Assembly (NCBI GenBank): GCA_022565595.1
Contig: JAIUML010000037.1
Coordinates: 1 to 33,689 of the forward strand
Source: Saccharospirillum sp.
GTDB taxonomy: Bacteria; Pseudomonadota; Gammaproteobacteria; Pseudomonadales; Natronospirillaceae
Direction: 5' to 3'
DNA: 33,689 nt
Below the pieces are notes generated by a model. That model saw only the letters and a program-made list of their open reading frames with translations. It made no database searches and was not told the DNA's origin. Positions 6,134-16,964 of the stretch are shown here, in pieces (position 1 is the stretch's first letter; every line of letters starts with the position of its first letter). Made by a program: the position numbers and the translations under genes.

Positions 6134-6172
6134 ATTTTTTTTCGGTGGTCCGAGTTTTTTGGCGGTGGTCCG
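6134..6172. repeat. Short imperfect tandem repeat beside repeat copy A
   Basis: Two adjacent units of about 20 bases each carry a run of T followed by GGTGGTCCG: the first around 6134-6152 and the second around 6155-6172. It lies between the hutU start and the 108-bp palindromic element. No function is apparent. Confidence 0.5.
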
Positions 6173-6174
6173 CA

Positions 6175-6282
6175 CCGGGTAGGGGTAAGCCCCTGGAAGG
6201 GACGCCATGAACCCATCCCTGGGGGCTCGGCTGTCCACATCCTTGTGGACAGACGCCCTTCCAGGGGCTTACCCGCACCCGG
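6175..6282. repeat. 108-bp structured palindromic repeat, copy A
   Basis: The outer stem is GGGTAAGCCCCTGGAAGGG at 6183-6201 paired perfectly with 6256-6274. It extends after a 2-by-2 internal loop by CCGGGT (6175-6180) with ACCCGG (6277-6282). Inside is a 27-base core at 6203-6229 beginning CGCCATGAACCCATCC, then a perfect 9-bp hairpin, CTGTCCACA at 6231-6239 with TGTGGACAG at 6244-6252 and loop TCCT. The same element with different stems occurs at 15969-16076 in the same orientation. It sits in the hutI-hutU gap, so it is transcribed within the hut operon. Confidence 0.85.
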
Positions 6283-6302
6283 CGCTGGTCAATTGCGATT
6301 AC

Positions 6303-15798: not shown

Positions 15799-15832
15799 CG
15801 AGAGAAAGGCAGATCGTTACAGGAACGGTCGT

Positions 15833-15915
15833 CTCAGCTCCCTACGCCAGCATTAACTGGTTCAGGTTCGGCGGGTGAGTCTCAGCCTGCGCGGTTACGC
15901 AAGCACCCCGGCGAG
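15833..15915 (-). promoter_or_regulatory. TPP riboswitch (THI element)
   Basis: Read on the minus strand, the conserved aptamer blocks appear in order: GGGGTGC, GGCTGAGA, ACCCG, CGAACCTGAACCAG and TTAATGCTGGCGTAGGGA, with closing strands TCTC and GAGA at the two ends. These are the diagnostic sequences of the thiamine-pyrophosphate aptamer. It precedes thiB by about 107 bases and should shut off thiBPQ when TPP is abundant. Confidence 0.96.
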
Positions 15916-15968
15916 AACACGGCTATTGTACAGCTTGAAGGGTTGGTTACCAAATGCCAAAACCCGCT

Positions 15969-16076
15969 CTGGCCAGTGGGCAGGCCTTTTCGGGGTCGCC
16001 ATGAACCCATCCCTGGGGGCTCGACTGCGGCCATCCAGGCCTCAGACGCCCCCGAAAAGGCCTGCCCACCAGCCAG
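15969..16076. repeat. 108-bp structured palindromic repeat, copy B
   Basis: The outer stem is GGGCAGGCCTTTTCGGGG at 15978-15995 paired perfectly with 16050-16067, and CTGGC (15969-15973) pairs further out with GCCAG (16072-16076). The 27-base core at 15997-16023 is identical to copy A. The inner hairpin is CTG-C-GGCC, loop ATCCA, GGCC-T-CAG (16025-16045). Total length matches copy A exactly, while the stem sequences differ. The gene-free stretch 15726-16163 holds the riboswitch, its platform and this element; I see nothing else in it. Confidence 0.85.
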
Positions 16077-16163
16077 CGCTAGTCAATTCAGCAATTGCCG
16101 ACCTGTACTTGAAAAAAACACCTGATAACGGATGATCAGACCTCGCTCTCAAAGAAAATCAAC

Positions 16164-16964
16164 ATGACCCAAGCTCTGACCCATGTACTCGACCATCTAA
16201 AAGCCCCCTTGAGCACCAACCTGAATGTGGCGCGCTTGCCGGGTGGTTTGTGCAATCGGCTGTATCGGCTGACCACTGCTGAGGGGTGTTTTGCGCTGCG
16301 GAGTAATCATCCGGGCAGTGAGCAGTTGGGGGTGGACCGTGAGCTTGAACGGCGGGTGTTGGCGGCGATTGCGGGGCAGGCGTGGAGCCCGCAGGTACTG
16401 GAGTGTGAGGCGGAGTGGTTGTTGTCTCGCTGGGTTGAGGGGTTGCCTCCGGCGCAAGGCGAGTTGACGGATTTAACTCAACTGCTGGGTTTGATGCAGT
16501 CCGTGCATGCCATTCAGCCGGAGGTGTCGGTGTTGAATATGGCGCGACGGCTGGAGGAACTGGTGGCTGCGGGGCCGGCCTGGCCTGAGCCGGCGGCGAG
16601 TGGGCTGGCTTTGTTGTTGCGCCAGTATGAACTGCCTGAGAGGCTTTGCTTGTGCCACAACGATTGGCATCCCGGCAATCTTCTGGTGACAACCGATGGG
16701 TGGGTATTGCTGGATTGGGAGTATGCGGCCCTGGGTGACCCGGCCATGGATGTGGCTGCGGCTTGTCAGGGGTTCAGGTTGCCGGAGGCTCAGGCGGCTG
16801 CCCTGGCAGAGGCTTTGTCCGTCGATTTACCGAGGTTGAATCAAGCTCGGGCCATGATGGAAGCCATTGCTCTGGCCTGGTATCGACTGCTATCTGACCA
16901 GACCGGTGCCAATGGGGACTCGCCAGACGCCTGGTGGCTGCGTTGGCAGTCCAATTTGGGGTAA
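16164..16964 (+). CDS. APH/choline kinase-family phosphotransferase, probable thiamine kinase
   Basis: A 266-residue small-molecule kinase of the aminoglycoside/choline phosphotransferase fold. The catalytic loop LCHNDWHPGNLL (about 169-180) has the Asp and Asn of the HxDxxxxN motif, and the metal-binding segment is LLDWEYAALGDPAMD (about 188-202). The N-terminal region LPGGLCNRLYRL is the nucleotide-binding loop. Size and motifs fit ThiK, which phosphorylates salvaged thiamine. The divergent thiBPQ operon next door supports that, but it is inference; choline or ethanolamine kinase remains possible. The ribosome site is weak. Confidence 0.85.
   Translation: MTQALTHVLDHLKAPLSTNLNVARLPGGLCNRLYRLTTAEGCFALRSNHPGSEQLGVDRELERRVLAAIAGQAWSPQVLECEAEWLLSRWVEGLPPAQGELTDLTQLLGLMQSVHAIQPEVSVLNMARRLEELVAAGPAWPEPAASGLALLLRQYELPERLCLCHNDWHPGNLLVTTDGWVLLDWEYAALGDPAMDVAAACQGFRLPEAQAAALAEALSVDLPRLNQARAMMEAIALAWYRLLSDQTGANGDSPDAWWLRWQSNLG

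Follow-up and report, generated by a model that had tools for sequence, protein, structure and literature searches.

A dispersed family of three-armed palindromic elements in Saccharospirillum and other Gammaproteobacteria

Two intergenic palindromes in a Saccharospirillum contig were found to belong to a large family of elements of about 125 bp, each of which folds as a T-shaped three-way junction with a long outer stem and two short arms. At least 142 matches to covariance model R1 (E ≤ 0.001) are present in the 4.77-Mb genome, and relatives occur in many Gammaproteobacteria. The description that fits it best is REP-like mobile DNA, in a three-armed and much larger form that has gone unrecognised. 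To the fuller reading, a dispersed REP-like mobile DNA element that is read by a trans-acting enzyme as a folded single strand, we give an even chance. The window referred to below is the whole stretch of DNA analysed, 33,689 nucleotides of contig JAIUML010000037.1.

The two window copies have the same orientation and identical 27-nt cores (6203-6229 and 15997-16023), as the initial annotation, made from the letters of the window, had reported. Both of the 108-nt stretches outlined there fold far better than dinucleotide shuffles, with z from -8.9 to -10.8 and 0/200 shuffles as good on the four strands tested (DNA parameters). The conserved unit is longer, however, and its conserved ends fall outside that 108-bp box (Table 1). 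The outer stems had been described as perfectly paired, which holds (19 bp in copy 1 and 18 bp in copy 2); the inner hairpin of copy 2 contains one C.T mismatch. The core had also been called invariant; this did not stand, as elsewhere in the family its pairs covary, GCC/GGC becoming GGC/GCC and CCC/GGG becoming TAC/GTA or TCC/GGA. Rather than being unpaired, the core is structured and contains arm 1. A TPP riboswitch at 15821-15920 (strand -), directly upstream of thiB, adjoins copy 2, and the divergent gene at 16164-16964 is closest to thiK, thiamine-kinase-like, with a score under the NCBIfam cut-off.

Table 1. Positions of the two element copies and their parts in the window
Feature	Position	Strand	Basis
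Element copy 1	6167..6291	+ (model orientation; strand inferred to fold, reverse)	R1 108.4 bits, E 5.0e-24, whole genome
Copy 1 site, between hutI and hutU			flanking genes named by NCBIfam
Copy 1 outer stem, 5' side	6183..6201	+	pairs with 6256-6274 in fold
Copy 1 arm 1, GCC-ATGAA-CCC-ATCCCT-GGG-GGC	6204..6226	+	fold and alignment A2; reverse-strand loop AGGGAT
Copy 1 arm 2, CTGTCCACA-TCCT-TGTGGACAG	6231..6252	+	sequence, fold; ACAAGGATGT on reverse strand
Copy 1 outer stem, 3' side	6256..6274	+	fold
Element copy 2	15961..16085	+	R1 140.7 bits, E 1.9e-32
Copy 2 site, between thiB (with its TPP riboswitch) and thiamine-kinase-like gene			thiB by NCBIfam
Copy 2 outer stem, 5' side	15978..15995	+	pairs with 16050-16067
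Copy 2 arm 1, as in copy 1	15998..16020	+	sequence, fold
Copy 2 arm 2, CTGCGGCC-ATCCA-GGCCTCAG, one C.T mismatch	16025..16045	+	sequence, fold
Copy 2 outer stem, 3' side	16050..16067	+	fold

Aligned copies begin with AACCCGC and end with GCGCTAGTC on the window strand. The outer stem, modelled with 26 pairs, contains a small internal loop in which CTA faces CAT, and is followed by two unpaired bases, usually TC, that lead into arm 1, which in the family reads GCC-(GTGAA)-CCC-(ATCCAT)-GGG-GGC with five bases bulged. One base later comes arm 2, made up of NG, a mismatch, about 8 pairs, a TCC-containing loop and the pairing partners; a further single base joins it to the other half of the outer stem. 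The whole forms a three-way junction, as had been thought plausible from the two window copies. In many Cellvibrionaceae copies arm 1 is CTACAGGGATGTA.

In longer subtypes, of 138, 174 and 195 bases, additional modules are found within arm 1 or in the arm-2 loop, and in the fetched loci 46/51 matches to three module sequences fall within elements. The 174-base subtype has its GGA loops on the opposite strand. At L152:4728-4877 and L151:2718-2856, outside the aligned model matches, modules of the 195- and 174-base subtypes stand side by side, possibly as a larger composite element. The 195-bp subfamily (L067:1030-1224, L244-L251; 12 copies) has a nearly invariant inner module, with 93% mean identity, and outer arms that are 78% identical, 6/12 of which pair without mismatch over the 18 bp compared. 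This subfamily was probably amplified recently, since genomes G003 and G004 contain many matches to it at about 80-94% identity.

The covariance model was built from 22 of 30 pattern loci, which were aligned with their flanks; of the remaining 8, one copy was omitted for its additional sequence and the others because they are not elements. In the 22-copy alignment (MAFFT, with the structure written from one row and the consensus) 30/42 pairs change on both sides, and the covariation score is 0.443 against 0.058-0.099 with slid partners; 0/500 shuffles reach any of the measures. A 150-row alignment, which was fitted to the covariance model and leans towards it, has 94.7% of its cells paired, with 38/42 pairs changed on both sides in 1353 cells, and scores 0.562 against 0.150 when shuffled (0/500 as high) and 0.069-0.091 with slid partners. 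The earlier proposal that structure is kept, as opposed to simple duplication, is thus upheld across many copies, and the data support maintenance of the stems by selection or correction.

The initial annotation had also suspected an abundant family, and the covariance-model search found far more than its two copies. Of the three outcomes that would have spoken against its proposal, namely two copies only, absence from relatives and lack of covariation, none was obtained. The first 16 bases of the core, at most 2 mismatches being allowed, occur at 37 places in the genome, compared with 1 for the reversed pattern. The count obtained with model R1 comes from scoring 150 of 2345 candidates, so more copies may exist in the genome. 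Of 28 genomes searched with this model (own included), 16 have between 2 and at least 126 matches and 12 have none; congeners contain 18, 7 and, in three cases, at least 126, and other genera 2-61. A pattern scan of named genomes gave at least 118 stretches, with Zobellella, Marinobacter, Saccharophagus, Stenotrophomonas, Xanthomonas, Alteromonas, Rheinheimera, Methylomicrobium, Halopseudomonas and Saccharospirillum among the matches listed. The model confirmed 168 non-overlapping copies in 111/118 of these loci, after removal of 5/173 rows (alignments A5 and A6) as overlapping lower-scoring opposite-strand matches. Scoring 150 candidates in each of fourteen named genomes gave at least 14-137 matches per genome. 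An even sample of 299 genomes from the phylum contained 16 (own included) with a match at E ≤ 1e-6, and all 16 belong to the same class as the window.

Outside Gammaproteobacteria there are two model matches (L296:194-303 and 1945-2064), in a metagenome bin that bears the title Desulfobulbaceae; another metagenome bin, titled Klebsiella pneumoniae (L308), has four. Both bins may be misassigned; for the L296 matches a misassigned contig or transfer is possible. In viral contigs the narrow pattern found 0 stretches and a looser one 14, of which 0 match the model at E ≤ 1e-5, and the plasmid search produced no two-copy match. On the elements of the window and of ten loci of other origin no Rfam model attained its gathering score, and a permissive Rfam search of copy 1 returned sub-threshold matches only. 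We found no description of the element in the open-access literature, subscription papers being mostly outside this coverage, nor any mention there of RHEPIPGGS, a string that the initial annotation had read from the core. The family is large and apparently undescribed.

For placement, 74 stretches around matches were fetched (610,633 bases including the window), and genes were called with an uncurated codon-score script that tolerates overlaps of up to 40 bases. Alignment A4 took the best 150 of 255 listed matches, from which 4 were removed as overlapping lower-scoring opposite-strand matches to leave 146 copies; 139 of these are flanked by predicted genes on both sides and the other 7 have no gene on one side. 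None of the 139 overlaps a predicted gene by more than 40 bases, which makes the element intergenic. Flanking genes, given relative to element direction, are -- in 55 cases, ++ in 45, +- in 20 and -+ in 19, showing no preference, and single copies likewise show no direction bias (20 ++, 30 --, 14 +- and 11 -+). On this absence of bias a 3' or 5' UTR element was rejected. Distances to the two neighbouring genes are asymmetric (45 and 189 bp) owing to pairs only, the 75 singles lying 51 and 54 bp away. Copies are also present in several gene gaps of a phenol-hydroxylase-type operon on L062, the functions being read from translations.

Where two copies share a gap they are convergent (+/-) in 33/33 cases, 29-175 bp apart. 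Among neighbours less than 200 bp apart in other genera, 26/39 are convergent, 6 divergent and 7 in the same direction, and Xanthomonas has alternating arrays of elements. At L305:2480-3354 of Xanthomonas hortorum three convergent pairs stand in tandem with a period of about 303 bp, resembling a BIME cluster. The 33 pair spacers are AT-rich (GC 0.40 against 0.56 for the loci), and show no similarity to one another at E ≤ 0.01; the stems of pair partners are no more similar than those of reshuffled partners. A pair moving with its spacer as a fixed unit, in the manner of a MITE or terminal repeat, was rejected on these two grounds.

Insertion-like presence and absence is seen both in the patchy copy number and in empty sites of relatives. 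The thiB site has no element in G002 and G005 and one each in G000 and G003, in the same orientation and with different stems. At the hutU-hutI site G000, G003 and G004 each have one copy in the same orientation, that of G003 being of the 138-base subtype. The convergent pair at L067:5928-6271 stands in a gap of 462 bp in the own genome; G000 and G004 also have a convergent pair at this site, and G002 and G005 an element-free gap of about 96-103 bp. Insertion boundaries are approximate. In G003 the gap that holds this pair in G000 and G004 contains a different palindromic repeat, of the GTTGGATTA...TAATCCAAC type (L235, G003:C3:485900-486900), which also adjoins the hut element of that genome (L227, G003:C1:216000-224500). 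Neither exact ends nor a duplication of the target site could be established.

Among high-copy congeners, 17 comparisons at 8 sites gave 8 elements at the same site in the same orientation, 1 in opposite orientation and 8 with none; in low-copy congeners 0/8 comparisons had an element in the orthologous gap. Some orthologous gaps were anchored on one flank, and L067:18441 was matched by its + member only and L078:1579/1808 by its - member only. The 8/17 agreements seem to us more than random insertion would give; ancient inheritance maintained by selection would fit them, and so would hot spots of insertion. Same-site copies are either inherited, with their stems turned over under a kept fold, or the result of site- and orientation-specific insertion. 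Sequence comparison could not separate the two, since copies that share a site (mean identity 0.631, n=10, including three at hut) are not closer to each other than copies at different sites (0.620, n=63). The arm-2 stem CTGTCCACA of the hut copy is common to G000 and G004, a shared sequence that favours inheritance of this copy.

Departures from pairing were used to compare the strands. On the window strand, the 6066 pair cells of the 146 copies contain 102 A.C, 29 G.T, 92 C.T and 28 A.G mismatches (A.C over G.T, p 1e-10 with cells taken as independent), and over the whole structure 21 columns have more A.C and 10 more G.T. The A.C/G.T asymmetry is confined to the outer stem, where it is distributed across the columns, with 97 A.C and 19 G.T there and 5 and 10 in the two arms. 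It recurs in other genera (A.C 177 vs G.T 77; C.T 182 vs A.G 29), where some of the counts are perhaps misaligned internal loops. G.T and G.A are the mismatches best tolerated by a folded strand. Since outer-stem mismatches read as these on the reverse strand, we take this strand to be the one that folds, and its folding appears to be what matters. A strand-biased mutation process might also lie behind the asymmetry.

On the folding strand G.U takes up 102/6066 cells (1.7%), close to G.A with 92, and the arms are almost purely Watson-Crick. Close copies (less than 10% stem divergence, 290 non-independent comparisons) show 422 double changes and, among single-sided departures, 212 A.C, 51 G.T and 285 others, so that wobble is not favoured. 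Together, the absent G-U preference and absent gene orientation argue for folded DNA over RNA, with RNA still conceivable. The initial annotation had left the choice between a mobile palindrome and a structured RNA motif. REP-like mobile DNA is now favoured; the loops are like those bound by CsrA/RsmA, but neither gene direction nor the frequency of wobble speaks for RNA.

A CsrA/RsmA-binding RNA is kept as the main rival reading because the reverse-strand arms carry ANGGAN-type GGA loops. Both arms present GGA on this strand. Among own copies 143/146 contain CANGGANG there, 80 of them at least twice, and among copies from other genera 165/168, with 121 at least twice; the opposite strand has it in 21 and 16 copies, and reversed-sequence controls have it in 7 and 2. 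At the other-genus loci only a second CANGGANG is independent, as the fetching pattern contains one. Hairpins of three pairs with a 6-nt ANGGAN-type loop occur at least once in 141/146 and 159/168 copies and at least twice in 69 and 112, and a loop of 4 or 5 nt is common in arm 2. PMC7652899 gives RUACARGGAUGU, mostly in hexaloops, as the CsrA SELEX consensus, and ANGGAN hexaloop hairpins as the ligand in RsmE structures. Judged from its sequence, a reverse-strand transcript would show two ANGGAN-type hairpins, and a CsrA dimer could bridge the arms, which we consider possible though unlikely. At the same level of doubt, dispersed copies might act as UTR binding sites or a sponge, and a convergent pair might serve either direction of transcription.

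The presence of ACAAGGATGT in arm 2 of copy 1 fits binding by CsrA, as does the coincidence of the GGA-loop strand with the strand inferred to fold from the mismatch asymmetry. In contrast, gene direction shows no bias, among singles either, wobble pairs are scarce and have no advantage over other mismatches, and the 174-base subtype displays its GGA loops on the other strand. Furthermore, arm 2 has about 8 pairs, whereas most SELEX hairpins described in PMC7652899 had four or fewer. A DNA-binding or nicking protein that reads the hairpin loop would explain the loop conservation equally. CsrA-binding RNAs of the CsrB/RsmY/Z type likewise have hairpins with ANGGAN-type loops on one strand; the element differs in its roughly 150 intergenic places and long outer stem, and no promoter or gene-direction bias is seen for it. 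A combination of the two readings, in which a class-wide mobile folded element provides about 150 intergenic CsrA/RsmA ligands per genome, placed so as to serve transcription from either side, as a genome-wide anchoring or titration system, with its stems renewed by concerted change, seems to us somewhat less likely again.

A REP-type transposase (RAYT/TnpA-REP) had been proposed as the mover, and this was not borne out. The genome has one Y1_Tnp gene (L031:1468-2181), a REP_Tyr_transpos relative that scores 64.6 bits against an NCBI cut-off of 80, and no element lies in the 9-kb stretch around it. After this gene comes a direct repeat, CTGACCCTATCGATTCCA, which has no relation to the element. 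Elements stand beside Y1_Tnp genes in 0/31 sources (30 distinct genes) and in 2/30, one of them marginal, the loci examined being the best Y1 matches only. Four genomes with elements have no Y1_Tnp match (G015 with 61 elements, G030 with 26, G031 with 22 and G032 with 38), and 7/12 element-free relatives have one. Across the 28 genomes (own included) and the 14 named genomes, Y1 is thus neither needed for elements nor sufficient, and RAYT is not supported as the mover. An unusual REP, moved in trans as a RAYT/TIRYT (Y1 HUH) substrate of TnpA classes 2.1 or 2.3, for which Quentin et al. 2018 (PMC6006769) recognised no REP, seems improbable on the same evidence. In its favour are a copy number of the REP kind, the inverted pairing of copies, their position between genes, and the Y1_Tnp match in 9/10 of the genomes with at least 19 elements among the 28 (own included). 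The mover is probably something other than the Y1 (RAYT) transposase of these genomes.

We also looked for other mobilising genes. When 1195 proteins were clustered, of which 380 are neighbours of elements, only five families recurred in at least 3 contig groups; all are large and host-type by sequence, and none resembles a mover. An autonomous form, with its gene enclosed by two convergent copies, was rejected after reading the proteins of six +/- cases, which show only host-type genes (the first six genes in the longest gene-containing case).

Mutation alone, with template switching copying each mutation across the hairpin so that stems stay perfect and seem to covary without selection, we hold to be the least probable of these explanations. 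Even where copies are close, double Watson-Crick changes outnumber each other class, wobble intermediates are scarce, and the divergent yet often mismatch-free outer arms of the 195-bp subfamily fit this process; the last result could alternatively come from mosaic assembly of modules. Template switching leaves the conserved loops and junction bases, the strand asymmetry, the amplification and the pair orientation unexplained.

Mobile DNA accounts for the covarying stems, conserved junction bases and loops, patchy high copy number, convergent pairs and empty sites. Against it stand the failure to find a mobilising gene by Y1 association or neighbour clustering, a strand asymmetry limited to the outer stem, and pairs that do not move as a fixed unit. 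In addition, CANGGANG on the folding strand of 143/146 copies is more than expected of dead transposon copies. We envisage that a trans-acting enzyme would recognise the reverse of the window strand, folded as single-stranded DNA, through its two GGA loops and would copy it into new intergenic sites, probably while the DNA is single-stranded in replication. Only lineages still able to fold would go on spreading, and template-switch correction between the sides of the palindrome probably adds to the concerted change of stems.

Several known systems resemble the element. REP/BIME/REPIN sequences are described in Di Nocera 2013 (PMC3733652) as palindromes of 20-40 nt tagged with GTAG or CGTC. They share with the element a high-copy intergenic palindrome, inverted dimers with variable spacers, occurrence as singles and clusters, and a copy number that is very uneven between relatives. 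In contrast to a short single hairpin, the element has about 125 nt and a three-way junction with two arms, stems that differ widely within one genome, no free GTAG/CGTC foot and no flanking RAYT/Y1 transposase gene. In the reverse-strand consensus GTAG is present only within the outer-stem internal loop (60-90% conserved in the own genome), and no GTAG/CGTC tag was seen by eye in Cellvibrionaceae copies. The TIR families of TIRYT transposases in Stenotrophomonas maltophilia, described in the same paper, are also self-complementary and form dimers, in a genus that carries the element. These TIRs flank a Y1 gene, whereas the element does so at 1/10 Y1 loci of two S. maltophilia genomes, marginally (L410, E 0.006); the comparison was by description, and identity of the S. 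maltophilia copies with one of these families keeps a small probability.

The overall shape has a parallel in DNA that is read folded. Terminal hairpins of the AAV type are T-shaped, with a long stem and two small arms, as in the element, and are read as folded single-stranded DNA. They differ from it in that no cargo or Rep gene is seen between element pairs, whose spacers are host-DNA-like. The attC sites and the targets of filamentous phages (dRS3) were also weighed as candidates.

If the reading as mobile folded DNA is true, an element with more than 100 matches in Saccharospirillum genomes and in Marinobacter, Stenotrophomonas, Xanthomonas, Methylomicrobium and Marinimicrobium has gone without a name that we could find or an Rfam model. 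It would provide a clean case in which covariation, usually taken as proof of RNA, may stem from folded DNA. The element would then permit a direct test between a new route for moving palindromes and a dispersed control element of the CsrA type.
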